From NCBI GenBank assembly GCA_018436095.1, contig JAHDMJ010000014.1:62001-126000 (forward strand): a stretch of 64,000 nt of DNA. The letters are read 5' to 3'. A program made the position numbers and the translations under genes. Every line of letters begins with the position of its first letter. Position 1 is the first letter of the stretch. Positions 5,709-51,388 of the stretch are shown here, in pieces. The notes under the pieces were generated by a model. That model was not told the DNA's origin. It was given only the letters and a program-made list of their open reading frames with translations, and did no database searches. This DNA is from Clostridia bacterium (GTDB taxonomy: Bacteria > Bacillota > Peptococcia > DRI-13 > UBA5745).

Positions 5709-5736
5709 ACTGTTTGTTCCTCGCTGATCAATTCAT

Positions 5737-7722: not shown

Positions 7723-7793
7723 AGCTTCCTCCTGTCCAATTTAACAGCTAGCACTCTGTGCCCTCTAAAAGTTTACATCTGCTTAGCACTAGA

Positions 7794-8876: not shown

Positions 8877-8877
8877 A

Positions 8878-9918: not shown

Positions 9919-10592
9919 TTTTTTACCGGCACCCCCTTTCTGGCCGCAATGGTATTAATTGTGTCGAGACTTTCTTGAGCCGCAATGGCTAAAGGCAGCT
10001 TTTCTTCAATGTCCGCGATATCCGGCAGCTGGCGGCAAACATCCTCTAAGGCCCAGGGAGGAATAATACAAATGCCGTCCTCATCACCTACCAGAATGTC
10101 TCCCGGATTTACCCTGGCGCCGCAGGCATCTACGGGTACGTTGTAGGCCACACATTGAATTTCTTCGGCATAGGGCTTAGTTCCTGATCCCAAACAATAG
10201 ACGGGCATCAATTGGCCGGCTAATTCCTTTTTGTCCCGAATACAGCCGTCCACCACCATACCGCCCAGACCCTGAGTCATCATCATTTGTCCCACATTGC
10301 CGCCTGTAACCCAGCAAAGAGAGCCCAGGGAAGCAAATAACAAAATGGAACCGGCCGGGGTTTTGCGGACTAAATCAAAAGTTCCCAGCCCCTTTACCTC
10401 ATAGCCTGCTTGCTTCGGAATATAGGCAATTGTGATGGCGGGCCCTACCATATTGGCGGCCAATTCTTTTTGCAGGCAGCAAAGCCCCTTGAAATAACCG
10501 CTAACACCTAACCTGCGCATGGAATCACAGATATTGCCGGTGGGAGTATGGCGCAGCAGCTCAAAAAGCTCCTCCTGCCGCATATGATTCAT
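9915..10592 (-). CDS. RraA family protein (HMG/CHA aldolase or oxaloacetate-decarboxylase-like)
   Basis: 225 residues with the RraA fold. Conserved elements: TGNICDSMRRLG near 18 (the family D), GPAITIAYIP near 48, the pocket GGNVGQMMMTQGLGGMVVDGCIRD with catalytic Arg-Asp near 119, and VGDEDGICIIP near 180. Family members with this Arg-Asp pair are metal-dependent class II aldolases/decarboxylases giving pyruvate (4-hydroxy-4-methyl-2-oxoglutarate aldolase type); others are RNase E inhibitors, but the catabolic operon argues for an enzyme. ATG at 10592 is preceded by GGAGGAGAGG. First gene of the operon behind a candidate sigma-54 promoter. One of three RraA paralogues in the window. Confidence 0.87.
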   Translation of the reverse strand: MNHMRQEELFELLRHTPTGNICDSMRRLGVSGYFKGLCCLQKELAANMVGPAITIAYIPKQAGYEVKGLGTFDLVRKTPAGSILLFASLGSLCWVTGGNVGQMMMTQGLGGMVVDGCIRDKKELAGQLMPVYCLGSGTKPYAEEIQCVAYNVPVDACGARVNPGDILVGDEDGICIIPPWALEDVCRQLPDIADIEEKLPLAIAAQESLDTINTIAARKGVPVKK

Positions 10593-15197: not shown

Positions 15198-15243
15198 GAA
15201 ACCTCCATCATTTTAAGCATAAGTAAAGGCTTACAGAAAGAAA

Positions 15244-15933
15244 TCAGTCAATACCGACCAAGCTGTCTACAGGCAGCGAAAAGATCAACCCTTTACAGGC
15301 GGTATTTAACCCGGCAACCTGGCTGATAGCCTTCATGATTGCCTGCTTATGCTCACGTTTGACGATAATCCCAATAATATCTTTTTCCGGCTGGATACAA
15401 ATACCTAAGAAACGTTCCGTCTCCTGCCCCACATTTCTGGCATGAATCACCGTGCCGCCGGTAGCTCCCGCCTCCCGGGCCGCTGCCATTACCTCTTCTT
15501 TATGCCCCTGATTAATTACAGCAAGGATCAGGTCATGCTTAACCGATTCTTCCATCTTATTCACTTCCTTTTCAAACCTATCTCGTTCTTCTTCCGTCAA
15601 TACCCGGGCAAAAGGGCCGCTGATGCCGGATAAAGGCATCGTAAAAATAATCCCTTTGCCGGGCCTTTTTAACTGCATTTCCGTATTAATAGCTTCAAAC
15701 ATTTTTGGTATCTTAAACTGGGGCGCCATACTTATGACTACGTCTTTATCCGTTTCTCCCAGTCCCAAATAATCCAGGATCTCCGAATTGGCGGTACCCA
15801 TCCCCAAACAAATGAAATGCACATGAATGTTGTGTTTAAGGCAAATATCCACAACCCGCTGGCCTTTGCCCCGATCAACGATAGTAACGATCATTTTAAT
15901 CATTTTTTCTTGTGGGCTCAATTGCTCACTCAT
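15244..15933 (-). CDS. Double PII-like signalling protein
   Basis: 229 residues made of two PII-type ferredoxin-like units. First, about 10-105: MIKMIVTIVDRGKGQRVVDICLKHNI ... IHVHFICLGMGTA and an FTMPLSGISG segment. Second, about 122-225: HDLILAVINQGHKEEVMAAAREAGATGGTVIHARNVG, FLGICIQPEKDIIGIIVKREHKQAIMKAI, ending in IFSLPVDSLVG, which resembles canonical PII (GxxGGTVIxGRG; E-K-x-x-x-I-x-V). No uridylylated T-loop tyrosine motif is evident. PII-like proteins sense nucleotides or metabolites and bind partner transporters. It follows the DUF1538 membrane protein gene with an 8-base overlap, so the natural hypothesis is that it gates that transporter. Confidence 0.82.
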   Translation of the reverse strand: MSEQLSPQEKMIKMIVTIVDRGKGQRVVDICLKHNIHVHFICLGMGTANSEILDYLGLGETDKDVVISMAPQFKIPKMFEAINTEMQLKRPGKGIIFTMPLSGISGPFARVLTEEERDRFEKEVNKMEESVKHDLILAVINQGHKEEVMAAAREAGATGGTVIHARNVGQETERFLGICIQPEKDIIGIIVKREHKQAIMKAISQVAGLNTACKGLIFSLPVDSLVGID

Positions 15934-17455
15934 TTACCATATCCCCCTCGTACAGGATGATTTCTTCTTCCGTCTGAGAAGCTTTGTCCGCTTCTTGACC
16001 CGCCTTTTTCACTCGCCTTACATAGATAAGGCCCAGTATTTGAATAGTGATTAACGGCGTCATCGCCACCATGGCCACAATACCGAAGGCTTCCGTTAAA
16101 ATATTGCCGCCCAGAGCCTCGCAGGCCCCCATGGCAAAGGGCAGTAAAAAGGTAGCCGTCATCGGGCCGCTGGCCACACCGCCGCTATCAAAAGCTACAC
16201 CGGTAAAAATTTTCGGTACAAAGAAAGATAAGCTTAAGGCCAGGGTATAGCCGGGAATCAAAAGCCAAAAGATCGAAATCCCCGTCAGCAGCCGGGTCAT
16301 AGCCAAACCCAAAGAGATGGCTACACCGATAGAGAGACTAATTTGCATATATTTTTGGGGAATAGCGCCGGCGGATATCTCCTCGACTTGTTTATTTAAG
16401 ACGTGGACTGCCGGCTCTGCCGCCACAATGAAATAGCCGATCAGCATACCTAGAGGAATCAACAGCCATTTAAAAGAGCTGCCGGCAATAGCCGTTCCCA
16501 TAAATTGACCGGCAGGCATAAAGCCCACATTGACTCCGGTAAGAAAAAGCACCAAGCCGATCAGGGTATAGCCCAGTCCAATCGATATCCGGATTACTTC
16601 TCTGCGGGAACAATAGCGGCATGACCACTGAAAAAAGATAAATGCCGCAGCAATAGGCAATATAGCCAATGTCACCTCTTTTAAAAACTGGGGCAGCTCA
16701 AAAGCAAATTGGCGGGCCACATCAGCCATGGTGGTTACTTCGGGAAAGTCTAGACCTTCGTAATTGACCGTTGAGGGATTGTATAAAATCCCCAGAATCA
16801 AGACGGCCAAAATTGGGCCGATACTGCATAAAGCTACCATGCCAAAGCTGTCGTCCTGAGACCCGGGGTCGCTGCGAACGGAAGAAATACCTAAACCCAT
16901 GGCCATGATAAAGGGCACCGTGATAGGCCCCGTAGTGACGCCGCCGCTGTCAAAAGCCACAGCAATAAAGCTTTTTGGCGTGAATATAGCCAAAAGGAAA
17001 ATACCGACATAGAAAAAAATCAGCATTTTGGACAAGCTGATTTGAAATAATGTCCTGAGCATAGCAATCACTAAAAAAATACCTACGCCCACGGCCACTG
17101 TAATAATCAACGTAAAATCCGGTATGGCCGGAACTTGGCGGGCCAGCACCTGCAAATCAGGCTCTGCAATAGTAACGAAAATGCCCATACATAAAAAAAC
17201 CAAAATAATAAGCCAGACTTTTTTCGATTGAGTCATTTTGGCGGCAATACCCTCGCCTATGGGCATCATAGCGATATCCGCACCCAAAGAGAAAAAACCC
17301 ATTCCCAAGATAAGTAATACGGCGCCGGCTAGAAACAGCATCATCGTACCAATAGGCATGGGTGTTATAGAAATACTCATGACAAATACGATAAGTGTGA
17401 TTGGCAGTACGGAAGTCAAGGCTTCCTTGATCTTTTCTTTTAAAATTTTATTCAA
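15926..17455 (-). CDS. DUF1538 family membrane protein, duplicated (putative cation antiporter)
   Basis: 509 residues from TTG at 17455, chosen because AAGGGGTGG precedes it and a longer reading (from 17563) would overlap rlmH. Two homologous halves, each of six or so membrane segments, repeat the signature VAFDSGGVxxGPxT (about residues 180 and 420) and a GMGFFSLGADIAMMPIGE / GYFIVAAEPAVHVLNKQVEE motif pair. In Halomonas a two-gene DUF1538 system has been reported as a Na+/K+:H+ antiporter (from memory, moderate certainty), here both halves are fused. Co-translated with the double PII-like protein downstream. No terminator is visible between it and rlmH, but the 79-base gap could hold a promoter. 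Confidence 0.85.
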   Translation of the reverse strand: MNKILKEKIKEALTSVLPITLIVFVMSISITPMPIGTMMLFLAGAVLLILGMGFFSLGADIAMMPIGEGIAAKMTQSKKVWLIILVFLCMGIFVTIAEPDLQVLARQVPAIPDFTLIITVAVGVGIFLVIAMLRTLFQISLSKMLIFFYVGIFLLAIFTPKSFIAVAFDSGGVTTGPITVPFIMAMGLGISSVRSDPGSQDDSFGMVALCSIGPILAVLILGILYNPSTVNYEGLDFPEVTTMADVARQFAFELPQFLKEVTLAILPIAAAFIFFQWSCRYCSRREVIRISIGLGYTLIGLVLFLTGVNVGFMPAGQFMGTAIAGSSFKWLLIPLGMLIGYFIVAAEPAVHVLNKQVEEISAGAIPQKYMQISLSIGVAISLGLAMTRLLTGISIFWLLIPGYTLALSLSFFVPKIFTGVAFDSGGVASGPMTATFLLPFAMGACEALGGNILTEAFGIVAMVAMTPLITIQILGLIYVRRVKKAGQEADKASQTEEEIILYEGDMVNE

Positions 17456-17534
17456 TAAAAACCACCCCTTTTGTTTTAATCCCTCGTCTTGGCTTACCTC
17501 GCCTATAAATAAGGTCCAGGCAGGAGATGGCCGG

Positions 17535-18020
17535 CTACTTGTGGTAGAGCCGGCCCTGGGCAATCATCTGGCCCCGATAAAGCTGTTCCAGCAGCATCAC
17601 CCGGGCTAATTGATGGGGAAAGGTCATAGGCCCAAAGCTAAGTTGCCAACGGCTTCTGACATAGACCTCAGGAGACAGGCCGTGAGAGCTTCCTATAACA
17701 AAAACCATACGTTTGCTTTCGGGGCTGGAGGCAGGGTCAATAGCCTGGGAAAAGGCGGGAGAATCCATGGTCTTGCCGGCCGGTGACAGCGCCACCACTA
17801 AATCGTCAGGCCGAATCCGGCTCACTATACGCTGGCCTTCCCGGCTCAGGGTCTGCCCGATCAAAGCCGGCACTGCCTCAGCCTTTAAAGGTTCCTCGGC
17901 AATCTCAACGATCTCCACCGGCCGCATGACCGTCATTCTTTTAAGATATTCGGCGCAGGCTTCCCGGTAATACTTCTCTTTAAGACTGCCCACGGCTATA
18001 ACCGCCAGCTTCACTGCCAA
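17535..18020 (-). CDS. rlmH: 23S rRNA (pseudouridine1915-N3)-methyltransferase
   Basis: 161-residue SPOUT methyltransferase. The start MAVKLAVIAVGSLKEKYYREACAEYLKRM is typical; the SAM-binding trefoil knot region shows VFVIGSSHGLSPEV (about 108-121) and LSFGPMTFPHQLARVMLLEQLYRGQMIAQGRLYHK at the C-terminus, the RlmH hallmark ending. It methylates helix 69 of 23S rRNA as a dimer on the 70S ribosome. Length is normal (155-162). It is 13 bases downstream of the YycJ-type hydrolase gene, an arrangement common in Firmicutes. Confidence 0.97.
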   Translation of the reverse strand: MAVKLAVIAVGSLKEKYYREACAEYLKRMTVMRPVEIVEIAEEPLKAEAVPALIGQTLSREGQRIVSRIRPDDLVVALSPAGKTMDSPAFSQAIDPASSPESKRMVFVIGSSHGLSPEVYVRSRWQLSFGPMTFPHQLARVMLLEQLYRGQMIAQGRLYHK

Positions 18021-18033
18021 TTCCTCCGTTTTC

Positions 18034-18810
18034 TTAGATGCTTATACACTCTCCCGGTGTGCAGCGGGGCGCCACCGATAACATCAGCCCTTTGCCCAGA
18101 AGCATTTCGCTTACGGCTTTTAATGCCTTTTCCGGTGTATTGTTTTCCTGACTCAAATGAGCCAGCACTACTTGCCTTGTCTTCCGGCCCAGAATTCTCA
18201 GCAAGCCGGCAGCCGCATCTTCATTGGATAAATGGCCGTCAATGCCGGCTATCCGCTTCTTTAAATAAAAAGGATAGCGGCCTTTGCGCAGCATCTCCAC
18301 GTCGTGATTAGCTTCCAGTACCAGAAGGGGCAGATCCTGCAATATCCGCTCCATCCGGTTGGTAAAAACACCGCAATCCGTGGCGATACCAATGCCCCTA
18401 TCATCATCTTGCCGCAGCACATAACCCACGGATTCCAAGGCATCGTGGGAAGTAGGGAAAGCTTCTAAGTCAATTGAACCGATACGCCATTTTTCCGAGG
18501 GATCAATAATATGTTTATACTCCTGAGGAATCTCCTCAGCGATAGCTCCCATTTCAAACCAGGTGCCTTCCGTAGCGTAAACAGGCAGCTTCAGCCGCCG
18601 GGCCAAGACGCCTACACCGGCAATATGATCCCGATGGGCATGGGTAACTAAAATTGCCGACAACGAAGAGCCATCACCGTAGCCGGCCATGGCCATGTTA
18701 GTCAAAATCCGTTTTCCTGATTGACCGGCATCAATCAAAAGACTGGTTTCACCGGCCCTGACAAAGTGGCAATTGCCCCAGCTCCCACTCATCAAACTGC
18801 AATAATCCAT
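18034..18810 (-). CDS. MBL-fold metallohydrolase, YycJ/WalJ type
   Basis: 258 residues of metallo-beta-lactamase fold. Metal ligands: THAHRDHIAGV (HxHxDH, about 55-62), D in IGIATDCGVF near 140, EANHD near 163 and a C-terminal H in VVLAHLSQENN near 220. The YycJ family start YCSLMSGSWGNCHFV is clear. These enzymes are probable 5' exonuclease-like hydrolases linked to the WalKR region and DNA replication/cell wall control in Firmicutes; here the gene is with rlmH and not with walKR, which is also common in Clostridia. Confidence 0.92.
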   Translation of the reverse strand: MDYCSLMSGSWGNCHFVRAGETSLLIDAGQSGKRILTNMAMAGYGDGSSLSAILVTHAHRDHIAGVGVLARRLKLPVYATEGTWFEMGAIAEEIPQEYKHIIDPSEKWRIGSIDLEAFPTSHDALESVGYVLRQDDDRGIGIATDCGVFTNRMERILQDLPLLVLEANHDVEMLRKGRYPFYLKKRIAGIDGHLSNEDAAAGLLRILGRKTRQVVLAHLSQENNTPEKALKAVSEMLLGKGLMLSVAPRCTPGECISI

Positions 18811-18868
18811 AAGTTATCGGCCTCCATCCTTTTATTGTAGAGGATTTGAGCCGAAAAGGGAAGCCCAT

Positions 18869-19681
18869 CTATTGATAGGAATAAAAAAACTTTTCCTGCC
18901 AAAAGGAAAAGGGCATTCCTGTAGCCTCCTGGAAAGCCTGATCCCAACCCTTTCCCTGCTCTTGCAGCTCAAGAATACCAACGATCCCCTGCCAATCCCA
19001 ATCTGCCAGCATTTGCTCAAAGGCAGCATAAGACATATGGTAAGCGCAAAGCTGGGTAGCATGACGGTCAAACATGGAATCCAAACCGGATAAATGGGGG
19101 ACCTGTACGCCTTCATCAATTTCTTTCATCGGCATTACCAAATCTTCCCCTGCCGGCACCGGCAAGGCATAGCCCGTCAGCCTGTATTCTGCGTATTGGG
19201 CAAAACCTTCCGAAAACCAACGGGGGGCCCGGCCGCCGGAAGCCCGGTCTATCACCCAATGCCCCAGTTCGTGGCTGAGAGGGGGATTCTCCCCCTCCAC
19301 ATCCAAAATAACCACATTACCCAGCCAATAATAACCGGCCGTACGCCGCTGGGTACTGTTAAAAACAGACCCCGGCAATTGCGGCCCGCCCAAAAAAATC
19401 CGCACCGGCGAATTGGCGCCTTTGGGCGCCTCTTCATTTGCCGTCTCCGGATTTGCCTCCGCAGAAAGCCAGCCCTGCATTTCTTCCAGCCAGGCCTGGC
19501 CCTGGATTAAAAACGTCTCCGCCTCCGCACCATAACGCTGGGGATAGATAATCATGATATCCCCCTGGAGCTGATGGTTAAAGTCCCTGGGCCACATTGC
19601 CGTAAAAAAACACAAGGCAGCTATACCGCCGATCAGCAGCCATAATTTCTTTTTCAATAATTTTTTTTTCGAATTTGTCAT
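18869..19681 (-). CDS. Membrane-anchored gluzincin peptidase (peptidase MA-like)
   Basis: 270 residues. N-terminal KKKLLKKKLWLLIGGIAALCFFTAMW is a signal anchor; the domain is outside. The zinc motif is PLSHELGHW (about 132-140, HExxH) with the third ligand in WFSEGFAQYAEY about 22 residues later, the gluzincin arrangement. A C-terminal helical part includes SYAAFEQMLADW. Substrate unknown; related proteins in Clostridia are often predicted cell-surface peptidases. Monocistronic-looking: 58 bases before the hydrolase gene and 137 after the next gene on the left. Confidence 0.82.
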   Translation of the reverse strand: MTNSKKKLLKKKLWLLIGGIAALCFFTAMWPRDFNHQLQGDIMIIYPQRYGAEAETFLIQGQAWLEEMQGWLSAEANPETANEEAPKGANSPVRIFLGGPQLPGSVFNSTQRRTAGYYWLGNVVILDVEGENPPLSHELGHWVIDRASGGRAPRWFSEGFAQYAEYRLTGYALPVPAGEDLVMPMKEIDEGVQVPHLSGLDSMFDRHATQLCAYHMSYAAFEQMLADWDWQGIVGILELQEQGKGWDQAFQEATGMPFSFWQEKFFYSYQ

Positions 19682-19818
19682 GACGGCACACCTCTTTTAG
19701 GTTCATGTCTTCATGCTTTCTTATAAAAACGGGATAAAACTGAATGATGTAATTATATCATAATTTTCAATTTCTTTCTTACGGTAAGTTATGGGAACAC
19801 GGTTATCATTGCCGTTAT

Positions 19819-21621
19819 TCAGAGCCGGTCTCCGGGATAGATATTCTCAAATGCGGCGACGTATTCCCGCCCAAAGATGCAGGTGAATTCAAAGACAGCC
19901 GCATCCACGGCGTCTTCTCCCTCCGCACCCAGCAAATAGATGATCTCGCCGCCAACACTGTGTACTACGTGCCCGATGTGATAATTAAAATCGTGCACAC
20001 AGCTGTTTCCAAGCTCTGCTTTTTTTCGAGCAATCTGCGCTTCCTCCTCCGGCGTCAGCTTTACCTTCCAGTCAAATTGGCAGGATTCCGCTCCCCAGGT
20101 GAGGTTGGAAATTACCTCACAATCAAATGAAGAATTGAAGCCTCGAATCACAGCCGCATCAATACAAGTGCAAAAGTACTTGCCGTATTCCAGCAGACCG
20201 TGCTTTCTCCAGTAGTCGTTCCACCCGCATTTTGGAGAACGGGAGACGGCTGTGGCCGGTGTGGAAAAGGTGCCAAATTCCATTTCTCCAGGTGCTGCCC
20301 GCCATTCCCCATAGGCCTGGCTGTTGATAAAATCCAGCCGGTCACCGCGAAGAATCACCCGGGCTGCCATTCGTGTTCCACGTTCCTCCCCCAGACGCTT
20401 TACCCCTACTACAAAGGCATTACGTCCCCCATCCCCGGCATAGGTAATTGCATATTTAGCAAGGAGCCCCAGCATTACCGCATGTTGTTCCAACCCATTA
20501 TCCCGTTTTTCCGAATGCTGCGCCAGACGGCTGCCATGCTCCGCCACATCCTGGGTCAGATCATGATACAAGGCTTCCAGCGTGCGGTATACCTGTGCAG
20601 GGTCAGTGTCATTGATAGCCCCAAAGAACAGGGAGAGCTGCGGTTTAATTTTCTGGGTCAGAAAAATTTCCGCCCGTTCGGTTATGCCGCCTTTGGTAGC
20701 ATGCTTGCGGGTATTATACAAAATGGTTCGCCTGGTTTCCAAAGCCGTTACCCGGAACTGCTGTGAAATGGTTGCCGCCTGATTGGCCCTTGCTTCTTCC
20801 GGGGGCACCCCTTTTTCAGCCAGGGCCCGCACCGTTCCGTCAAAGATGCCCCGCCGGACTGAATCCAGCATCTGCCTTAACTTTTGTTCTCTGCCTTCTT
20901 TTGGCACAACGGGGTCTCCTTGCTGAAGCCCGTATAGTATGCAAGCTAAATGATGAACTGCCCCTTCATCGCCGTCAAAGAGAATATCGGCAATGGCAAA
21001 GATGGTATCCGGTATCACATAACTTGCGATGACTCCCGCAAGGGTTTCCAGTAGCAGCGCAGGCTGTTGGATATTCAACATGCCGAATGGCGCAAAAAAA
21101 TCGTAGAGGCGGGCGAGGTTTTCGCCGCTCCACTGTTCACCCTCAGGAAAGGACAGCAGTGTAAATCCTGCCCGTGAAATATCCACATCGCCTGCTGTAC
21201 GAAACATATTAGGAATGATGTTAACCACATTGATATCCTCCCCCAGCAGTTTCTGATATGCGCTGCCAGAGGGCTTGGGTGGAAATGCATAAATATCAGG
21301 CAGTGATTCCCCCGCTTGCCGCAGTTCCTGAAAATACGGCATTAGGATATCTTCGATTAAAGCAGGGGCTGCCGTGGGAGGCGGTGCAAAAATAATAATA
21401 TCCGGCTTGCCATCCCGCAAAGCTCCGGCATTGTCTCCCAGATACACCGGAAAGCCCAGTTCTTTGCGCTTGCGTTCAATATCCGCCTCGTCTAACGTGA
21501 CGCCGATCATATGGGTCCCGGTCTGATCCCCCAGCAGAGCCTGATAGCCAGGCAGTACATATTCTGCGATATAGCCCAGGCCAATAATCACAATCCTTGG
21601 CGCCTGCACGTTTTTGTTCAT
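19819..21621 (-). CDS. Fusion: pyrroline-5-carboxylate-reductase-like domain + L-2-amino-thiazoline-4-carboxylate hydrolase-like domain
   Basis: 600 residues. N-terminal part (about 1-270) is ProC-like: Rossmann start RIVIIGLGYIAEYVLPGY, DIIIFAPPPTAA, NVVNIIPNMFRTAGDVDISRAGFTLL and a helical section QPALLLETLAGVIASYVIPDTIFAIADIL. The C-terminal part (about 340-590) resembles the ATC hydrolase family: GLEQHAVMLGLLAKYAITYAGD..NAFVVGVKRLGEERGTRMA near 375-415, the cysteine-rich FCTCIDAAVIRGFN near 495, LTWGAESCQFDWKV near 523 and HDFNYHIGHVVHSV near 555. In Pseudomonas that enzyme opens the thiazoline ring to N-carbamoyl-L-cysteine. It lies 28 bases after a genuine proC and an ABC importer operon. 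The combination is unusual; the ATC assignment rests on recalled motifs (moderate confidence). Confidence 0.68.
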   Translation of the reverse strand: MNKNVQAPRIVIIGLGYIAEYVLPGYQALLGDQTGTHMIGVTLDEADIERKRKELGFPVYLGDNAGALRDGKPDIIIFAPPPTAAPALIEDILMPYFQELRQAGESLPDIYAFPPKPSGSAYQKLLGEDINVVNIIPNMFRTAGDVDISRAGFTLLSFPEGEQWSGENLARLYDFFAPFGMLNIQQPALLLETLAGVIASYVIPDTIFAIADILFDGDEGAVHHLACILYGLQQGDPVVPKEGREQKLRQMLDSVRRGIFDGTVRALAEKGVPPEEARANQAATISQQFRVTALETRRTILYNTRKHATKGGITERAEIFLTQKIKPQLSLFFGAINDTDPAQVYRTLEALYHDLTQDVAEHGSRLAQHSEKRDNGLEQHAVMLGLLAKYAITYAGDGGRNAFVVGVKRLGEERGTRMAARVILRGDRLDFINSQAYGEWRAAPGEMEFGTFSTPATAVSRSPKCGWNDYWRKHGLLEYGKYFCTCIDAAVIRGFNSSFDCEVISNLTWGAESCQFDWKVKLTPEEEAQIARKKAELGNSCVHDFNYHIGHVVHSVGGEIIYLLGAEGEDAVDAAVFEFTCIFGREYVAAFENIYPGDRL

Positions 21622-21649
21622 AAAACAAATCTCTCCTTGTCTAATTGTA

Positions 21650-22453
21650 TCAATGTTTGTTTAAGCGTTTGGATTTCTCTGAACTGCTCACCACGGCATC
21701 CGCCACCGCAGCCCGCATTCCCTTGCGTTCCAGGGCCAGAATTCCCTCAATGGTGGTGCCTCCCGGGGAGCACACTGCATCCTTAACCGCAGCGGGATGC
21801 ATCCCGGCGTCCAGAATAAGCTTGGCGGTTCCCAGCACGGTCTGCGCCGCAAGCCGGTATGCAGATTCGCGTTTCAGCCCCTGCTGAACACCGCCGTCCG
21901 CCAAGGCCTCTACAAACATGGCAACATAGGCGGGAGCGCCTCCCGAAAGACCGGTTACCGCATCCATCAGTTCCTCGCCGACCCATTCCACCATTCCGAT
22001 TTCGGAAAGCCAACGTTCAACCGTTTCCTGTTCCGCCTGGGTCAGCGTAGTGTCCAATGAAAAGCCGAACACTCCCGCACTTACCAGAGCGGGTGTATTG
22101 GGCATAATGCGCAAAATGCGCACCGGTGTTCCTGCCCATTCCAACAACGATTTATGATCTACGCCCGCAACAATTGACAGCAGCGCCTTGCCCGAAGCAG
22201 CGCCTCGGGTGGCTTCCAGCGCCCCTCGGGCAACATTCGGCTTAACCGCCAAAAGGATATAATCCACGCTCTCGCATAGCGCATGTTCACTGTCCGCAAT
22301 CACCGCACCCAGCTCTTTGGCAGCTTGCACGGCAGGCTGTGCTATATCGTAAACTATAAGGCTGGAAGCCTTCACGGCGTCTGCCTTAACCAGTCCCTGG
22401 GCTATGGCCTTTCCCATATTGCCAAAGCCGAGGAATCCCAACGTACCGCTCAT
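21650..22453 (-). CDS. proC: Pyrroline-5-carboxylate reductase
   Basis: 267 residues. Rossmann start LGFLGFGNMGKAIAQGLVKA, the NADP-site DYILLAVKPNVA near 68, RILRIMPNTPALVSAGV near 110 (family I-M-P-N-x-P), and the dimerisation domain ending with LSGGAPAYVAMFVEALADGGV (about 167-187) and VCSPGGTTIEGILALERKGMRAAVADAV (about 225-252). Reduces pyrroline-5-carboxylate to proline with NAD(P)H; length is standard. Its place between an ABC importer and a ProC/ATC-hydrolase-like fusion suggests it may act on a related cyclic imine (a thiazoline- or pyrroline-type acid) and not only in proline synthesis (inference). Confidence 0.9.
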   Translation of the reverse strand: MSGTLGFLGFGNMGKAIAQGLVKADAVKASSLIVYDIAQPAVQAAKELGAVIADSEHALCESVDYILLAVKPNVARGALEATRGAASGKALLSIVAGVDHKSLLEWAGTPVRILRIMPNTPALVSAGVFGFSLDTTLTQAEQETVERWLSEIGMVEWVGEELMDAVTGLSGGAPAYVAMFVEALADGGVQQGLKRESAYRLAAQTVLGTAKLILDAGMHPAAVKDAVCSPGGTTIEGILALERKGMRAAVADAVVSSSEKSKRLNKH

Positions 22454-22486
22454 AATAGAAAATCCTCCTTGAAGTGAATCGGGCGC

Positions 22487-23374
22487 TTAGCGCCACTTAA
22501 TTAAGGCGTTGCGCAGCAAACGAATGAGCACATTGAGCATCGTAACCACAAAGCCGATCACAATAATGCCCGCTACAACACGCGTATAGTCTGCAAAGTC
22601 CGAATAATATTTGACATACCAGCCAAGCCCCGAGGTTGCGCCGATCATCTCTGCAGCGGTAAGCACCATAAACGAGGTGGATACCGATACGGTCAAGCTG
22701 TTAAACAGCATAGGCAAGCTATTGGGAAGCAGCACATAGGCAAACATGCCAATAGTTTTGATGTTTAGCGTGCGTGCGGAGTCCATAATTTTTTTATCCA
22801 CACTTGACACACTTAGAATCATATTCATGAAGACGCTCCAAAAGATGCTGCTGAAAATAACAAAGATGGAGGCGCTGCGAAAGCTTGGCAGGAGGGCCAC
22901 CGCATAGGGTGAATAGATGATGGGCGGAATGGGACTGAGCACCTTGGCAATGGGGAACAGTGCCTTGCGGGCATTCTCAAACCAACCAACCAGCATGCCC
23001 AGCACAATACCTAATGTAAGCGCCAGAAAAAAGCTCAGGAACAGCAGACGCAGGGACGACACTACTCCCATGGAAATCCGCTGAAAATCAGTGATATAAA
23101 GGGCAAATACCTTCTGGGGGATGGGGTAAAGCATGGTATTAACACCGTCCACGCGGGTGGTGTAATATTCCCACAGATCAAGAAATGCCATGACGATAAT
23201 ACCGATGTTGGTTGCCGCAGAGGAGTGGCGTTTCAAAATCAGAACGACTTCAATAGCGCCCGCCGCAAGCAAGAACTCCCAATAGCTGGGCACCTCCACA
23301 TTGGAGGGAAGCAGTATCAGGGCAACAAGTAAAAGAAATAACAAATGGGGAAGCAGGCGATAGAGCTTTTTCAC
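22487..23374 (-). CDS. ABC transporter permease, SsuC/TauC/ThiX type
   Basis: 295 residues with about seven hydrophobic segments; the family motif for ATPase contact (EAA loop) is at MDSARTLNIKTIGMFAYVLLPNSLP near 195-218. N-terminal LLPHLLFLLLVALILLPSNVEVPSYW is the first membrane span. Typical single-permease importer of the nitrate/sulfonate/taurine/thiamin-precursor group. Start overlaps the ATPase gene by 4 bases. Substrate unknown; in the context of an ATC-hydrolase-like enzyme, a small sulfur or nitrogen heterocycle is a reasonable guess. Confidence 0.9.
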   Translation of the reverse strand: MKKLYRLLPHLLFLLLVALILLPSNVEVPSYWEFLLAAGAIEVVLILKRHSSAATNIGIIVMAFLDLWEYYTTRVDGVNTMLYPIPQKVFALYITDFQRISMGVVSSLRLLFLSFFLALTLGIVLGMLVGWFENARKALFPIAKVLSPIPPIIYSPYAVALLPSFRSASIFVIFSSIFWSVFMNMILSVSSVDKKIMDSARTLNIKTIGMFAYVLLPNSLPMLFNSLTVSVSTSFMVLTAAEMIGATSGLGWYVKYYSDFADYTRVVAGIIVIGFVVTMLNVLIRLLRNALIKWR

Positions 23375-24171
23375 AGGTACACCTCCGCTCCCCCAATTTG
23401 GTTGGCAACATTCTGATAAAATAAAGACATGATCTGGCGGCGCAGCGCACGGTATTCATCAGTATCAAAAATTTCATTGCGTATGCGGGGACGACTAAAG
23501 GGGACAGCGATTTCCTGCCCTATGCGTTTATTATTCATGAAAAATATCCGGTCTGAAAGTAAAATCCCTTCGTCCACATCATGAGTGACAAACACGATTG
23601 TTTTTACATGCTCATCCCTTTGCAGCAGGTTCAGCAACAGGTCCTGAAGCACCATTTTGTTTTTTGCATCTACTGCGCCGAAGGGCTCATCCATTAGAAG
23701 AATTTCCGGCTGCATGGCAAGCGTCCGCGCAATGGCTACCCGCTGCTGCATACCTCCCGAAAGCTGATAGGGATATTTATTTTCAAAGCCCTCCAGCCCC
23801 ACTTTGTTTAGGTATTCCTGGGCCAGACTTTCCGCTTCCCGCTTAGGGATCTTCTCCCTTGCATGATTGATGCCCAAGATAACATTGCATCGTGCCGTCA
23901 TCCATGGGAACAGGGAATAGTGCTGAAACACAACCCCCCGGTCGGAACCCGGGCTTTTTATTTGATGGCCGTCAATCAGGACTTTGCCTTCGGAGGGATG
24001 GTTAAGGCCCGAAAGCACACCCAGTGCGGTACTTTTTCCGCAGCCGCTTGAACCGATCAGGGACACAAACTCCCCCTCTTTCACGGAAAAGCTGAGTCTG
24101 TCCAGTGCGTGAAATCGCTTTCCGTTATCCATATAATCCAGACTGATGTCAATTACTTCAATTTTATTCAT
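23371..24171 (-). CDS. ABC transporter ATP-binding protein, SsuB/TauB type
   Basis: 266 residues from ATG at 24171, chosen because GTGGAGAG precedes it at suitable distance (an in-frame GTG at 24189 would place it in that site). Walker [10 protein letters not shown] (about 37-45), Q-loop [11 protein letters not shown] near 82, signature [16 protein letters not shown] near 140, Walker [16 protein letters not shown] near 160, switch histidine [18 protein letters not shown] near 197. The C-terminal part [10 protein letters not shown] is typical of taurine/sulfonate-type ATPases. Follows the receptor gene after a strong stem-loop. Confidence 0.93.
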
Positions 24172-24214
24172 TGCTTTGGCACTCTCCACATTTTGGCTGC
24201 ATTATCCTTTCCTG

Positions 24215-24262
24215 AAAGACAAATGGGAAGATTGCGGCAGCGTGATCTTCCCATTTGTCTTT
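24215..24262 (-). promoter_or_regulatory. Intercistronic stem-loop between receptor and ATPase genes
   Basis: AAAGACAAATGGGAAGAT (24215-24232) and ATCTTCCCATTTGTCTTT (24245-24262) are a perfect 18-bp inverted repeat with a 12-base loop. On the transcribed minus strand only three T follow, so it is probably a partial attenuator or 3' stabiliser raising receptor expression. Confidence 0.75.
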
Positions 24263-24275
24263 TTGCTGCAAGAAA

Positions 24276-25439
24276 TCAGTTTGTGGCTTCGTAAATATCC
24301 CGCAGTTCAAGATACACTGCGTCATCCGGATTTTCCGCAATCAGCGAGTCCAGCGCATCCTTAAACAAAGAGGTATCCGTATGATCTTCGATTGCCACAT
24401 TACCCTTGGCGTATTTTACATCCACCATGCCCTGAAAGAATTTCTTGACGTCACTTAGCGCGGGATTAGGTGTGATGCCGAGATGGCCGTAATCATAAAT
24501 CTGCTGGCGGATAATCTGATCGTCAACCAGAATGAACTTTTTGGCGATCTCGAGGGTTTTTGCCTGGTCAGTCTTATATAGGCGGTATGCTTTAATATTA
24601 GCTCGCACCAGTTTGACAAAGGCGGCCCGGTCCGCATCCAGCTTTTCCTGTGTTGTTACAAGACGGCAGCACAGAAAGCCAGGAAACAGCTCATCAATAT
24701 GTTTAACTACAGTAAGCCCTTGCTGTTCCGCAGTCTGGCGGAAGGTCATAAATACACTGCCCAAGTCAACGGAGCCATTCTTGATTGCTTCAATAATGGT
24801 GGGGCAGGAATCCAGCTCCACAAATTCAATTGTCGAAAGATCGATACCTTGTTCCTGCAAGTAGACTCTCAGTGCGATATCGCCGCTTTGCAGACGGGTA
24901 ATACCGATTTTTTTGCCCTGAAGAGCCTCCTGTGTCAGCTCCTTAAACTCATCCGCACGTTCCGGAAGCGCGAATAGTGCGGCGCCCTCCGTCATCTGCC
25001 CGCCGATGATAACAATATCATTGCCCTCATCTATGTAGTTCAGCACAGCGGTTGCACCTGCAGAGGTTGCGTCCAGCTTATCGGTGATCAGTGCGGTCAG
25101 ATTCTCCGGATTGGAATTGTTGGGGGTAAGCTCCACATTCAGACCTTCCTCGGCATAAAATCCGGCTTCTGAGGCCAGTATCGAGAGAAGATGGGGAACA
25201 GCATTATTCCAAGCAGCCATTCTCAACTTAACGGGTTCTGCCGCCTCCGGTGATTTGCCGCTATCCTGTGCTTCTTCGCCGCCTTGGGGCAAACTTTGAG
25301 ACGGCTTGGTGCTGGAAGCAGAGCCGTTACTGTCTGCACAACCCGCCAAAATCCCCATAGACAGCAACAAGACCAGCCCAATTACTATAATCTTTTGATG
25401 TTGTTTCACTGATCCAATTCTTCTTGCAACTCTTGACAT
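24276..25439 (-). CDS. ABC transporter substrate-binding lipoprotein, NMT1/SsuA-like
   Basis: 387 residues. Basic N-terminus, hydrophobic segment and lipobox ILAGC (cysteine about 34), Ser/Pro/Glu linker, then an NMT1/THI5/SsuA-type domain: VKLRMAAWNNAVPHLLSILASEAGFYAEEGLNVEL near 68-102, TSAGATAVLNYID near 128, GKKIGITRLQSGDIALRVYLQEQGID near 170 and a VDLGSVFMTFR pocket segment near 215. ATG at 25439 follows GGAGGTAATTTAG. First gene of the importer operon, transcribed away from the M20 gene; the shared 127-base region has two direct-repeat operator candidates. Relatives bind aliphatic sulfonates, taurine, nitrate or pyrimidine precursors. Confidence 0.9.
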   Translation of the reverse strand: MSRVARRIGSVKQHQKIIVIGLVLLLSMGILAGCADSNGSASSTKPSQSLPQGGEEAQDSGKSPEAAEPVKLRMAAWNNAVPHLLSILASEAGFYAEEGLNVELTPNNSNPENLTALITDKLDATSAGATAVLNYIDEGNDIVIIGGQMTEGAALFALPERADEFKELTQEALQGKKIGITRLQSGDIALRVYLQEQGIDLSTIEFVELDSCPTIIEAIKNGSVDLGSVFMTFRQTAEQQGLTVVKHIDELFPGFLCCRLVTTQEKLDADRAAFVKLVRANIKAYRLYKTDQAKTLEIAKKFILVDDQIIRQQIYDYGHLGITPNPALSDVKKFFQGMVDVKYAKGNVAIEDHTDTSLFKDALDSLIAENPDDAVYLELRDIYEATN

Positions 25440-25471
25440 CTAAATTACCTCCCAATATAATATAGTAAATC

Positions 25472-25549
25472 TATATGTTTTATATGCATTATATTTTCTT
25501 GAAATCGATTTGTCAACTACTATTTTTATATGTTTAGTATGCTTTATAT
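25472..25549. promoter_or_regulatory. Paired 23-bp direct repeats in divergent promoter region
   Basis: Two copies, 25472-25494 and 25527-25549, begin TATATGTTT and end TTATAT and match at 20 of 23 positions, 55 bases apart start to start (about five helical turns). They lie between the importer operon and the M20 gene, so a regulator binding both could control the two sides together. No regulator gene is adjacent. Confidence 0.5.
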
Positions 25550-25566
25550 GAAATGAGGTATCTGAT

Positions 25567-26718
25567 ATGAAAGCTAACCGCCTATATGAAACCTTTCGGG
25601 AACTGATCACTATATACAGCCCAACTTTTGGGGAAGGAGAATTTAGTTACCTGCTGCAAAGCAAGCTGACCGGCTTGGGCATAGTCTGCGAGGAGGATGA
25701 TGCCGGAATGCAGATTGGCGGAAACTGCGGCAACCTGTACGGCTTTTTGGAAGGCGCATTGCCGGGGCCGCCGCTTCTGTTCAGCGCGCATATGGACACA
25801 GTAGAGCCTGCCCGGGGAAAAGAAGCCATCCTTCATGAGAACGGCAAAATCACATCAGGCGGCGGGACCATTTTAGGCGCCGACGATGTATCGGGCATCA
25901 CGATTATTTTGGAGGCCTTGACCCGTCTGAAAGAAACCAAAATACCCCATAAGTCAATAGAGCTTCTATTCCCCGTAGCGGAGGAGCGCTACGGCCTTGG
26001 CTCTGCCATCGCCAACTACAGCAAGCTCCAGGCAAAGGAGGCTTATGTGCTGGATCTGAGCGGTGAAATCGGCGAGGCGGCAAATGCGGCGCCCACGCTC
26101 ATCTCCTTTATGGCATCCGTACAGGGCCGGGCGGCCCATGCCGGTTTTGCTCCCAAGGACGGCATCCATGCGATTTCCGCAGCCGCAAAGGCGATTACCC
26201 GCGTCCCCATGGGCGAGCCGGAACCTGGCGTTACCTGCAACATCGGAATCGTCTCCGGCGGAGAGGCCGGGAATATCGTCCCTGAAAGCTGTATCGTCAC
26301 CGGGGAAATCCGCAGCCTCTCCCACAGTACTGCCCTTGAATGGCTGGAACGGGTACACGGTATCTTTAAGGAAGAAGCAAAGGCGGCGGGAGCGTCTGTC
26401 TCCTTTATGCACCGCTGCGAAATCACCGCCTACGAAACTCCGGCAGACAGCGCTGTTGTCCGGCGTTTTAAGCGGGCCTGTGAAGCGGCGGGTGTTGCCT
26501 TCAAGCTTCACTCCACGTTGGGCGGAAGCGACAACAATCATTTTGCGCTGCATGGGATAGAGGGGCTTGTGATTGCCTGCTCCATGCACCAGGTCCATAG
26601 CACCCGTGAATATGCCGATATTCACGAAATGGAGCGATGCGTCGGGCTTGTGATGAATTTGATGACGGAGGAAGAGCTGTGCACACCGGAAAAAGGAGCT
26701 GCCGCAAATAATTTGTGA
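25567..26718 (+). CDS. M20 family metallopeptidase/amidohydrolase, PepT-like
   Basis: 383 residues, di-zinc M20 hydrolase. Ligand motifs: FSAHMDTVEPA (about 77-87), GADDVSGITI (about 105, bridging Asp), PVAEERYGLGS (about 138, catalytic Glu pair), VLDLSGEIGE near 160 and the C-terminal MHQVHSTREYADIHEM near 343; dimerisation domain with GRAAHAGFAPKDGIHA near 195. The start ATG has GAGGTATCTGAT before it. Closest in style to tripeptidase T, but M20 enzymes also include N-carbamoyl-L-amino-acid and N-carbamoylcysteine hydrolases. Divergent from the ABC/ATC-hydrolase-like operon, so a role in releasing the final amino acid of that pathway is plausible (inference). Confidence 0.9.
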   Translation: MKANRLYETFRELITIYSPTFGEGEFSYLLQSKLTGLGIVCEEDDAGMQIGGNCGNLYGFLEGALPGPPLLFSAHMDTVEPARGKEAILHENGKITSGGGTILGADDVSGITIILEALTRLKETKIPHKSIELLFPVAEERYGLGSAIANYSKLQAKEAYVLDLSGEIGEAANAAPTLISFMASVQGRAAHAGFAPKDGIHAISAAAKAITRVPMGEPEPGVTCNIGIVSGGEAGNIVPESCIVTGEIRSLSHSTALEWLERVHGIFKEEAKAAGASVSFMHRCEITAYETPADSAVVRRFKRACEAAGVAFKLHSTLGGSDNNHFALHGIEGLVIACSMHQVHSTREYADIHEMERCVGLVMNLMTEEELCTPEKGAAANNL

Positions 26719-26735
26719 CAGCCCTCAGATTAAAG

Positions 26736-26775
26736 AAAAATAACCCGTTTGGCAGAAGCCAAAGGGGTTATTTCT
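26736..26775. terminator. Bidirectional terminator between M20 and M23 genes
   Basis: AATAACCCGTTTGGC pairs with GCCAAAGGGGTTATT (14 of 15) with A-run before and T-run after; serves the M20 gene on plus and the convergent M23 gene on minus. Confidence 0.8.
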
Positions 26776-26841
26776 TAGGAAGCGTAAATTATGTTGTTGT
26801 TCTCGAATAAATTCGAAGAACTTGCTGAGCTTTATTTAGTC

Positions 26842-28455
26842 TTAATTGAGATAGTTTACCGGATTGACGGGACTGCCGCCGATCCTTACCTCAAAATGCA
26901 AGTGGGGTCCTGTACTCCTGCCGGTAGTACCCGCTAAACCTACCAACTCCTGACTGCCTACGGTCTGGCCCACGGAAACATTGAATTGGCTTAGATGGGC
27001 GTATAAGGTAGTCACCCCGTCGCCATGGTCAATGGTTACCAGATTGCCATAACCGCCGCTATAAGAAGCTGACACCACCGTACCGGCAGCAGCGGAGTAA
27101 ATAGGATCACCGGTACTGGCCTGGATGTCGATACCGCTGTGGAAGCCTCTGCTGCGATTGCCAAAGGGGGAGTTGATCTTTCCCCTGATGGGCCAGGCAA
27201 AACTGCCGCCGCCCACATTGCTGCCATCGCCTCTGGAAGCGACAATGGTTTTGGTGCCGCTTTCCACTACCCGGTCAACGGGTTCGGCAATGATAGTCTC
27301 CGATAATACTTTCTTGTCCACAAGAACGCCATTGATCTGAGCGATCTCATATTTGACTTCCTTAGTCCCTGCTGCGCCGGCAGCAAGGACTTTGCTTTGC
27401 CCTTGCCAGGCATCGCCATTGGGCTTATAAACGGTCTGATAAGGAATATCTTCCTTATCAACGGCACTGATAGTCATTTTCACCGACAGTAAAGGCTGAG
27501 GACTATTAAGCTTAAGCACCTGGCCTATCTTGAGGCTGTTGCCGGTGATACCGTTGATCTCTTTTAGCTGCTCTACCGTCAAATTGTTTTTGTTGGCAAT
27601 AGACCAGAAAGAGTCGCCGCTTTGAACCTTATACTCCCTCATGGGCTCTTTGCCCTCGGTGAGGGTTTTCAGGGCCTGCTCGCTGCTGCCCAAGCTGGTA
27701 ATAGGGATTTCTTCTTTGACCAATTCTATGGGCTGAACAAACTCCGTGCTGAGGATGGTGACTTGATCCCCTTCGGGCAGATAAGATTTCTTTACGTTTT
27801 CTAAAACTGCCTCGGCCTCAGATTTGGAGGGGAGGAATACCGTGCGTTCCTTACCGACGGCAATAGACCAGCCGTCAACTAACCAGGTAATTCCGCTCTT
27901 TAAGCTTTCCAAAATGGTCTGCTCGTCAGTAGGCTTGGTCTTAATGGCCACGCCTTCCTGCGTATAGCTGATCTCGGCTTTTTGACGGAAATTGGCTTCC
28001 GCAGGATAAGGGGAGGACAATTCCAGGCTTGCTTGCTCCAGCAGCTTCTGGCCAGCTTCTTTATTTTGGACGTAAGCGATAGGCTTGCCGTCCACCAGCA
28101 TAAGGTAGGGCTTGCTAATCTGCACAAAAACCATACAAAATACCAGAAGACCCAGTACGAAGACAGGTCCGGCGTTGGCCCAGGACGCCTTGTTGCGGCT
28201 GAAGGCTTTTAGCCAGGCTTTGAAGTCGAAACCATTTTTCGATAGCCTCTCCTTTGTACCAAAGGGGAATTCCTCTCTGGCCTTCGGCAAAGGCAAGGAT
28301 ACCTTCTCCTCTGCCTGCACAGCTTCCACTGCCGCAAATGCAGCTACTGCTTCTTCAATAGCATCATTGGCTTCCATTGCTGCCATCCCGGCTTCAGCGT
28401 CGGCCTCAATCCGGCCCGCCGCTTCATCCGCTTCAATTTCATCTGCTTCAATCAT
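26842..28455 (-). CDS. M23 family peptidase with LysM and G5-like domains
   Basis: 537 residues as read from ATG 28455. Cytoplasmic acidic Ala/Glu/Ile-rich stretch (1-60), one membrane segment GPVFVLGLLVFCMVFVQI near 95-112, YabE/spore-type N-terminal extracellular part, LysM motif YKVQSGDSFWSIANKNNLTVEQLKEINGI near 275-303, G5-like segment with DIPYQTVYKPN and KYEIAQINGVLVDKKVLSETI near 350-390, then the lytic endopeptidase with zinc ligands FHSGIDIQA and GPHLHFEVR near the C-terminus. It probably cuts peptidoglycan cross-links. The ATG at 28455 lacks a ribosome site; the frame stays open to 28563 where CTG follows AAAGGTGG, so a further 36 basic/polar residues may belong to it. Confidence 0.88.
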   Translation of the reverse strand: MIEADEIEADEAAGRIEADAEAGMAAMEANDAIEEAVAAFAAVEAVQAEEKVSLPLPKAREEFPFGTKERLSKNGFDFKAWLKAFSRNKASWANAGPVFVLGLLVFCMVFVQISKPYLMLVDGKPIAYVQNKEAGQKLLEQASLELSSPYPAEANFRQKAEISYTQEGVAIKTKPTDEQTILESLKSGITWLVDGWSIAVGKERTVFLPSKSEAEAVLENVKKSYLPEGDQVTILSTEFVQPIELVKEEIPITSLGSSEQALKTLTEGKEPMREYKVQSGDSFWSIANKNNLTVEQLKEINGITGNSLKIGQVLKLNSPQPLLSVKMTISAVDKEDIPYQTVYKPNGDAWQGQSKVLAAGAAGTKEVKYEIAQINGVLVDKKVLSETIIAEPVDRVVESGTKTIVASRGDGSNVGGGSFAWPIRGKINSPFGNRSRGFHSGIDIQASTGDPIYSAAAGTVVSASYSGGYGNLVTIDHGDGVTTLYAHLSQFNVSVGQTVGSQELVGLAGTTGRSTGPHLHFEVRIGGSPVNPVNYLN

Positions 28456-28666
28456 TATTTCGCTATCGTCATTTTTGTTTTCATCTTTGTTCCGGTGCTT
28501 TTCAGAGGTAAAAACCAGCTTGGACGCCTTGGCTTTGTCTCCCGATTGTCGCTTCCTCTTCAGATGAACACCACCTTTTTTTCAAGAAGTTTTGCCTTTG
28601 CTGCACATGCTTCTTACCAAAGGCATTATCCCGTGTTTCCATTAAACTTCCACTTGCACAGCCAAG

Positions 28667-28695
28667 ATTATACCACTTTTCTTTCCAATTTACAA
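28667..28695 (-). promoter_or_regulatory. Promoter of the M23 peptidase gene
   Basis: Minus strand TTGTAA (28695-28690), 17-base spacer, TATAAT (28672-28667). Leader of about 100 bases to the upstream CTG start; contains an 8-bp stem TGCCTTTG/CAAAGGCA. Confidence 0.7.
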
Positions 28696-28750
28696 TCCTT
28701 TAACATTTAGAATATGCCCTATTGGAAAAATTTGGTCTATTGTCCATCAA

Positions 28751-30154
28751 TTACGCTTCCTTAGCCTTGATCCAAATGGCGCATTCCAGCCGTTTTTTCT
28801 CTAATTCGCAGCCTAAATCATAAGGTTCTTTCAAATCGTGATTAAAGTTCCAGGCGTTGGCGTGACAGCCGCCGCTGCAATAAAATCTGGCCCAGCAGGC
28901 CCGGCACTTTTCTTTTGCCAGAACATGACACTCACGGAAATTATTGCCGATAGATGGTTTTTCTATACCTTTATCCACATTGCCCACGGCAAAGTCAGGA
29001 TTGCCGACAAATTGGTGGCAGGGGTACAAGGTTCCTTCCGGAGCCACGGCCAAATATTCATGGCCGGCGCCGCAGCCGCTGAGGCGTTTAGGCAAACAAG
29101 GGCCATGATTCAAATCCAGATTAAAATGGAAGAAGGTGAAAGGCTTACCGGCCCGGGCCCTCGCTACATAATAACGGGCCAGCTCATCGTACTGCCGGAA
29201 AAGCTCCGGCAGGTCTTCTTCATGAAAAGCGTATTCCTCCTGGGGCTGGGCCACCACCGGCTCCACAGAAACCAAATCAAAGCCGGACTCCACCATGTGG
29301 CGGATATCTTCATAAAAATCTTTATTGAATCTGGTATATGTACCCCGCAGATAATAATTGTCTCCGCCCCTGGCCTCTACCGTTTCTTTAAAATGGGGCA
29401 GAATCACGTCGTAGCTGCCTTGACCGCCGATAGCCGGGCGCATTCTGTCGTTGACCTCTTTGCGGCCGTCAAGGCTCAATACTAAAGCGATATCATGTTC
29501 ATTGAGAAAGTCCAGTATCTGGCCTTGCAGCAGCAGGCCATTGGTGGTCAGCGTCTGCTTTAGTTCTTTGCCCCGGCGGCGGCTCTCCGCCTCCCCATAA
29601 AGAACCAATTCTTTGACTACCGGGAAATTCATCAGCGGCTCACCGCCAAAATAGTCTATTTCCACATGCTTTCGGCTGCCGGAAGCCTCAAACAAAAAGT
29701 CCATGGCTTTTTTGCCGGTCTCCAGGGACATCAGGCTGCGGTCACCGCCAAAAGCTCCCGTACCGGCAAAACAATAACGGCAGCGCAGGTTGCAATCATG
29801 GGCTACATGAAGGCAGAGCGCCTTTACCACATAATCCTTGGGAAACCGGTAGTTTTCCAGCTCCGGCGCCTCCGACATCAGCATCCCTGCCGCCGCCAGC
29901 TCCGTCAAGCCTTGGCAAACTTCTTTTATATCACCGGCAATGTCCTGGCTGCCATCAATGGCCTTGGCAGATAAAGCCGCTGCCAGATTAGGGGAAGCCG
30001 GCAGCTCTTTTAAGTCACAGCCGGATTGCCGCCAGAACTGCACCATCTCATAAGCCAATGGGCTTAATTGATGGACAATGCCGCTATTAACGTCAAGTAA
30101 GATATGATCTTCTCCAAAGGTGAATACATGGGTCAAGTTTTCCGCAAATTTCAT
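28751..30154 (-). CDS. scfB: Radical SAM/SPASM maturase of the SCIFF peptide
   Basis: 467 residues, the length of SCIFF maturases. N-terminal RiPP-recognition-like part (residues 1-100; VFTFGEDHILLDVNSGIVHQLSPLAYEMV), the radical SAM cluster motif CNLRCRYCFAGTGAFGG near 117-133 (CxxxCxxC), EIDYFGGEPLMNF near 168, and a C-terminal SPASM region with many cysteines: CHQF, CHVLAKEKCRACWARFYCSGGCHANAW. Known family members install Cys-thioether cross-links in the SCIFF precursor, which is encoded directly upstream at 30306. GAAGAGGAAC precedes the ATG. Function of the mature peptide is unknown although the pair is nearly universal in Clostridia. Confidence 0.95.
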   Translation of the reverse strand: MKFAENLTHVFTFGEDHILLDVNSGIVHQLSPLAYEMVQFWRQSGCDLKELPASPNLAAALSAKAIDGSQDIAGDIKEVCQGLTELAAAGMLMSEAPELENYRFPKDYVVKALCLHVAHDCNLRCRYCFAGTGAFGGDRSLMSLETGKKAMDFLFEASGSRKHVEIDYFGGEPLMNFPVVKELVLYGEAESRRRGKELKQTLTTNGLLLQGQILDFLNEHDIALVLSLDGRKEVNDRMRPAIGGQGSYDVILPHFKETVEARGGDNYYLRGTYTRFNKDFYEDIRHMVESGFDLVSVEPVVAQPQEEYAFHEEDLPELFRQYDELARYYVARARAGKPFTFFHFNLDLNHGPCLPKRLSGCGAGHEYLAVAPEGTLYPCHQFVGNPDFAVGNVDKGIEKPSIGNNFRECHVLAKEKCRACWARFYCSGGCHANAWNFNHDLKEPYDLGCELEKKRLECAIWIKAKEA

Positions 30155-30224
30155 TTAAGTTCCTCTTCCATTTCGGATTCCCTAATTTTATCCGTTTACT
30201 AACATTTCTCAATAATCCCATAAA

Positions 30225-47062: not shown

Positions 47063-47131
47063 TTGACAATGGAAATCTTCTGTGTTTTTATTATATTGAG
47101 ATTGTTAATCGTTTTCGTTATCCGGTTTCAA
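47063..47131 (+). promoter_or_regulatory. Promoter of TRAP-TAXI operon with LacI-type operator
   Basis: TTGACA (47063-47068), 17-base spacer, TTTTAT (47086-47091; TATTAT 3 bases on), then TGTTAATCGTTTTCGTTAT (47103-47121) and CGGTTTCAATG. The same layout, including TCT-TGTTTTTATTAT, recurs at 51496. Divergent with the por promoter. Confidence 0.8.
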
Positions 47132-47175
47132 TGACCGCCGCCAGGCAGCGGCAGAAAGGATTAAGGAGAAATAAT

Positions 47176-50242: not shown

Positions 50243-50259
50243 TTTTCTTTCAAATACAG

Positions 50260-50288
50260 TTGACGGAATCTGTCTATTTCTATACAAT
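50260..50288 (+). promoter_or_regulatory. Promoter of the LacI-type regulator
   Basis: TTGACG (50260-50265), 17-base spacer, TACAAT (50283-50288). No terminator separates it from the TAXI gene 18 bases upstream, so read-through is also possible. Confidence 0.65.
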
Positions 50289-51384: not shown

Positions 51385-51388
51385 CCTT

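Follow-up and report, generated by a model that had tools for sequence, protein, structure and literature searches.

A pyrroline-5-carboxylate reductase-like/ATC_hydrolase fusion encoded with proC, an ABC importer and an M20 hydrolase in an accessory cassette of a Clostridia bacterium

The window analysed here is a 64,000-nucleotide stretch of contig JAHDMJ010000014.1 (positions 62,001 to 126,000) in the Clostridia bacterium assembly GCA_018436095.1. Among its genes is one for a 600-residue fusion protein in which a half remotely resembling pyrroline-5-carboxylate reductase (P5CR, or ProC) precedes a domain of the L-2-amino-thiazoline-4-carboxylate (ATC) hydrolase family. On the minus strand the gene order is binding protein, ATPase, permease, proC2 and fusion, with an M20 hydrolase gene divergent on the plus strand. 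A first-pass annotation had placed the fusion 28 bases from a full proC, at the end of an ATP-binding cassette (ABC) importer operon and divergent from the M20 gene, and the open reading frames lie as it described. The genes and the insert that holds them are as follows.

19794-26834, no strand: accessory insert of about 7.04 kb, about 97 bp in the congener G004 (DNA alignment)
19819-21621, minus strand: fusion, 600 residues (open reading frame list)
21650-22453, minus strand: proC2, complete gene for pyrroline-5-carboxylate reductase, the second proC of this genome (TIGR00112)
22487-23374, minus strand: ABC permease, BPD_transp_1 (profile search)
23371-24189, minus strand: ABC ATPase of the NtrC/D-SsuB-TauB type (profile search)
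24276-25439, minus strand: lipoprotein substrate-binding protein of the NMT1/SsuA type (profile search)
25567-26718, plus strand: M20 metallohydrolase, peptidase-T-like (profile search, motifs, PDB match)

Together the six genes form a single accessory cassette. Congener G004 is collinear with the window on both sides of it (15241-19793 and 26835-30173, at 83-85% DNA identity), and in G002, another congener, the flanks likewise enclose no island. None of the 8 other genomes of the family has an M20 match at E 1e-40, which is present in 27 other genomes of the class, and the only homologue of the binding protein in the family, and in the class, is a protein of 30% identity in one other genome (G005). 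ProC2 matches the TIGR00112 equivalog model at 264.9 bits (cut-off 196.75); it shares 42% identity with proteins from a different family and 33% with the ProC of the congener. It is an extra copy beside the housekeeping proC, which lies on contig 34 of the same genome and has the same length as the proC of G004. Horizontal acquisition of the cassette is the reading that we prefer. Bordering the insert on its left, window positions 18869-19681 encode a 270-residue protein that is conserved in the congener by DNA and has no Pfam match.

The arrangement of the cassette also marks it as a single gene set. The intergenic spacings along the minus strand are short (86 bases including a hairpin, then −4, 33 and 28 bases in gene order, the negative value being a 4-base overlap of the ATPase and permease genes), Shine-Dalgarno-like sequences stand upstream of most gene starts, and a perfect TTGACA-17-TATAAT site precedes the binding-protein gene (minus strand, 25516-25488), all of which fits one transcript. 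A second perfect TTGACA-17-TATAAT site (plus strand, 25433-25461) begins inside the binding-protein gene and points toward the M20 gene, and from these two predicted sigma-70-type sites the importer operon and the M20 gene start from one shared 127-bp gap. The gap also holds an imperfect 32-nt direct repeat (25463-25494 and 25518-25549). The inverted repeat between the binding-protein and ATPase genes is probably an attenuator that raises expression of the binding protein above that of the downstream genes. No Rfam family was matched in the cassette region.

24215-24262, no strand: perfect 18-nt inverted repeat with a 12-nt loop, terminator- or attenuator-like, between the binding-protein and ATPase genes
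25440-25566, no strand: divergent regulatory region of 127 bp (promoter and repeat scan)

Within the fusion, an NAD(P)-Rossmann and helical architecture (about residues 1-335) is followed by the ATC_hydrolase domain and a C-terminal extension.

20671-20700, minus strand: P5CR-type substrate-loop core ATKGGITERA, residues 308-317 (motif scan)
20071-20484, minus strand: ATC_hydrolase domain, about residues 380-517 (PF14196)
19819-20070, minus strand: C-terminal extension of about 80 residues, 518-600 (alignment with the "long" ATC_hydrolase subfamily)

The first-pass annotation had likened the C-half to ATC hydrolase and proposed a profile search, which bears the likeness out: PF14196 scores 57.5 bits against a cut-off of 28.1 (E 3.5e-15), the match spanning model positions 6-144 of 145, and a scan of the C-half by itself gives 59.9 bits. 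Residues C465, C484, D488, C514, R414-G415 and G494, which are invariant or nearly so across ten sequences, are all kept. By these criteria of profile and residue, the C-half is a genuine ATC-hydrolase-family domain. Its nearest relatives form the "long" subfamily (28-34% identity, E down to 1e-32), are standalone proteins where found, and have the C-terminal extension in common, with H551, F579 and G584 invariant in seven members. A sequence search of the PDB returned no relative of the family.

The likeness of the N-half to ProC is weaker than the same annotation had stated, and it rests on fold and on sensitive alignment. PF03807 stays below its cut-off over residues 9-92 (15.4-16.7 bits against 21.6), profile searches gave no match of the N-half to P5CR_dimer (PF14748) or TIGR00112, and with a plain hidden Markov model of ProC proteins of the class the N-half scored no better than shuffled sequence. 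An hhalign comparison with 20 ProC proteins gave E 8e-5 across residues 7-217, and the predicted secondary structure runs, as in P5CR, from a Rossmann to an all-helical part. In Foldseek the top match of the N-half model was ProC 3tri (E 1.4e-5), the alignment behind that model holding ProC2 as its second row; for a full-length model made without ProC in the alignment, PYCR1 ranked second (E 0.04). Since these models are poor (predicted local distance difference test scores of 48 and 41, respectively), an alignment being lacking, their fold matches are taken as support only. Rows from VIA-align (residues 4-185) fail to separate P5CR from prephenate dehydrogenase, ketol-acid reductoisomerase and glycerol-3-phosphate dehydrogenase, and a MAFFT alignment of the full fusion put ProC in the wrong place. 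The ATKGGITERA core sits where expected; when the N-half was shuffled 20000 times, only 21 of the resulting sequences contained it. The full P5CR signature (PROSITE PS00521) is present in ProC2; the N-half has the ten-residue core alone. ProC2 is a full member of the ProC/PYCR family. The N-half, for which a Rossmann and helical build is predicted, keeps the G-G-x-T core of the substrate loop, but in alignments its motifs AVKP and PNTPA are altered to APPP and PNMFR; it also exceeds P5CR in length by about 70 residues and is joined to a second domain. Its nearest relatives appear to be P5C reductases, though only remotely, and we read it as a diverged P5CR-like module that need not be catalytically competent.

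The importer is of the SsuABC/NitT type. Its binding protein, ATPase and permease belong to the same families as those of SsuABC, TauABC and NitT-type systems, but all score under the curated cut-offs of characterised systems; the models nearest to the permease are TauC/NtrB. The M20 protein carries the motifs HMD75, GADD104, AEE138, VLDLSG161 and MHQVHS340. Assignment to the hydantoinase/carbamoylase branch, which includes N-carbamoyl-L-cysteine amidohydrolase, the enzyme that yields cysteine from N-carbamoylcysteine in Pseudomonas, was considered and rejected, as the best match falls in the peptidase-T-like group: TIGR01883 (PepT-like) scores 262.5 bits (cut-off 274), the allantoate amidohydrolase model scores 51, and the best PDB match is 3gb0, "Peptidase T" (E 1e-58).

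PF14196 proteins occur in 61 of 398 genomes of the phylum (about 15%). Searches for the fusion covered relatives, the class, the phylum (with family, N-half and full-length queries), two further classes and plasmids, and among about 490 genomes none besides the window's own had both halves; two contig scans, run with short exact-peptide patterns that reach close relatives only, gave none either. Viral contigs gave no fusion match, and a match to the N-half in G242 proved to be a sigma-54-type regulator. The first-pass annotation knew of no description of such a protein, and none of a ProC-like/ATC_hydrolase fusion was present in the literature searched; the fusion combines known families in a new domain architecture. 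The annotation had proposed a survey for co-occurrence of the five genes, and none of the other genomes examined here keeps the set together. Nor did about 50 ATC_hydrolase neighbourhoods reveal a Pseudomonas-type pathway, with ATC hydrolase and carbamoylase genes together in several genomes. ProC was absent from these neighbourhoods and SsuABC-type importers were only occasional; no M20 or ProC gene lay within about 6 kb, save a distant M20 homologue (22%) about 2 kb away in G065, and in G334 the clear M20 match lies at a distance of about 8 kb.

Pairings of importer with hydrolase and of oxidoreductase with ATC_hydrolase recur, with different partners each time. In G423 a long ATC_hydrolase gene follows an Opp-type importer at a distance of 60 bp and shares its operon with genes for an amidohydrolase and a linalool-dehydratase/isomerase-like (Ldi-like) protein; in the G256 and f72 genomes, long ATC_hydrolase genes adjoin genes for NAD(P)- or flavin adenine dinucleotide (FAD)-dependent oxidoreductases, either saccharopine-dehydrogenase-like or an FAD oxidoreductase. 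In G005, the genes beside that of the binding-protein homologue encode a Cys/Met pyridoxal phosphate (PLP) enzyme and a pair of nitrogenase-component-1-like proteins.

If thioproline is oxidised as proline is, the product is delta2-thiazoline-4-carboxylate, which is ATC lacking its 2-amino group. Because it has hydrogen where ATC has NH2, ring opening of the kind that ATC hydrolase carries out on ATC would yield N-formylcysteine, which, being an amide, could serve as substrate for an M20 enzyme. Escherichia coli ProC oxidises L-thioproline, a cysteine-formaldehyde adduct (PMC12899673), and bacteria and mitochondria turn thioproline into N-formylcysteine (PMC9814826). The first-pass annotation had settled on no role for the ProC parts; thioproline oxidation by ProC offers a tighter chemical link than ATC itself. 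We propose that the importer would take up a cyclic imino acid, most probably a sulfur one such as L-thioproline (thiazolidine-4-carboxylate); ProC2, working oxidatively, would make delta2-thiazoline-4-carboxylate; the ATC-hydrolase-like half would add water at C2, opening the ring to N-formyl-L-cysteine; and the M20 enzyme would strip off the formyl group, leaving cysteine and formate. For the N-half we envisage either tethering of the hydrolase to ProC2 or binding of the cyclic intermediate. This reading, which we prefer, gives every cassette enzyme a step. The same intermediates would be used as in the mitochondrial and bacterial route from thioproline through N-formylcysteine to cysteine and formate, but the known route uses proline dehydrogenase or ProC moonlighting, and we found it nowhere described as having an importer or a thiazoline hydrolase of its own, or a gene cluster.

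Consistent with an acquired catabolic unit of this kind are the PF14196 match with its invariant residues, the clean insert, the extra proC, the M20 gene and binding protein with no family match and a 30% one respectively, the shared promoter region, the reported oxidation of thioproline by ProC and the substrate-loop core, together with the long relatives found with an importer and amidohydrolase or beside oxidoreductases, and the Cys/Met PLP enzyme beside the G005 homologue. Several points weigh on the other side. Conversion of delta2-thiazoline to N-formylcysteine can occur without an enzyme, so that one is not strictly needed. The importer genes match broad models only, the M20 protein is closest to peptidase T, the substrate cannot be read from sequence, and among the genomes searched there is no second copy of the cassette to show selection keeping the six genes together. 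A three-cysteine cluster, which the phenol sensors PoxR and MopR also have, places the ATC_hydrolase family together with V4R and HNOB domains in a group that includes sensors (PMC5847659), so that the C-half need not be catalytic. On balance, a cassette for import, redox and ring opening in general terms is an evenly poised proposition; its assignment to thioproline, in the order of steps given, is tentative and rather less probable. Unlikely, in our estimate, is the fuller version in which ProC and the fusion form a channelling complex that oxidises and opens rings of the thioproline type, in a horizontally acquired, dedicated pathway through which imported formaldehyde-cysteine adducts are recovered as cysteine and formate.

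The same kinship with sensors suggests that the C-half could be a ligand-sensing V4R-like domain with a ProC-like partner, making the fusion a sensor or an allosteric subunit of ProC2 rather than a hydrolase; loss of the AVKP and PNTPA motifs from the N-half would suit such a role. Yet the fusion has no DNA-binding or signalling domain, and its long relatives are encoded alongside importers and hydrolases in metabolic operons, and we consider this explanation improbable. We are similarly doubtful of the route put forward by the first-pass annotation, in which ATC, a product of cyanide and cystine, would be imported, opened by the fusion to N-carbamoylcysteine and converted to cysteine by the M20 enzyme as a carbamoylase, with the ProC parts accessory. 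The C-half does belong to the family named for ATC hydrolase, for which the literature searched gives experimental characterisation of ATC hydrolysis in Pseudomonas only; it keeps the conserved Cys, Asp and Gly residues, and an M20-superfamily gene with metal-site motifs was co-acquired in the same unit. However, the M20 protein is peptidase-T-like, ProC2 and the P5CR-like half are left with no role, and the gene set is unseen elsewhere. The fusion also differs from L-ATC hydrolase in its P5CR-like half, its 80-residue C-terminal extension and its accompanying ProC and importer, and the likeness established here is to the family profile. It is quite possible, if short of probable, that another cyclic imine or lactam is involved, with ProC2 reducing an imported or derived imine and the fusion and M20 enzyme carrying out some other ring or amide hydrolysis. 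ProC also acts on piperideine and other proline analogues (PMC12899673), and the variety of ATC_hydrolase neighbours (Ldi-like, FAD oxidoreductase, saccharopine-dehydrogenase-like and old yellow enzyme-type) points to varied chemistry, but no positive evidence favours any particular alternative substrate.

Should the channelling version of the thioproline proposal hold, the fusion would be the first enzyme outside the ATC pathway to hydrolyse thiazoline-4-carboxylate. The joining of an ATC_hydrolase domain to a P5CR-like half, with a co-acquired ProC, importer and M20 enzyme, gives a rare hint at a natural substrate class for the PF14196 family, namely cyclic thio-imino acids tied to formaldehyde and cysteine metabolism.

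Several other loci were recorded. The G423 locus L176 (C143, 358-11054), with its Opp importer, long ATC_hydrolase, amidohydrolase and PF18566 linalool-dehydratase/isomerase-like protein, is an unusual catabolic cluster. In G005, L101 (C119, 13-6008) encodes the two nitrogenase-component-1-like proteins, the Cys/Met PLP enzyme and the NMT1-type binding protein in a row, and may be a nitrogenase-like cluster that reduces organosulfur compounds. The window's own genome (G000) has two further ATC_hydrolase genes (C17:73148-73549 and C2:14079-14480); as judged by eye, one lies directly beside an ABC-exporter-like gene and the other beside an FtsH-like gene. Elsewhere in the window, inspection by eye suggests a radical SAM/SPASM peptide maturase-like protein at 28751-30154, and tripartite ATP-independent periplasmic (TRAP)-type-like transporter clusters at 4422-10592 and 47131-58429, with lipoprotein binding proteins and RraA-like and dehydrogenase-like neighbours.

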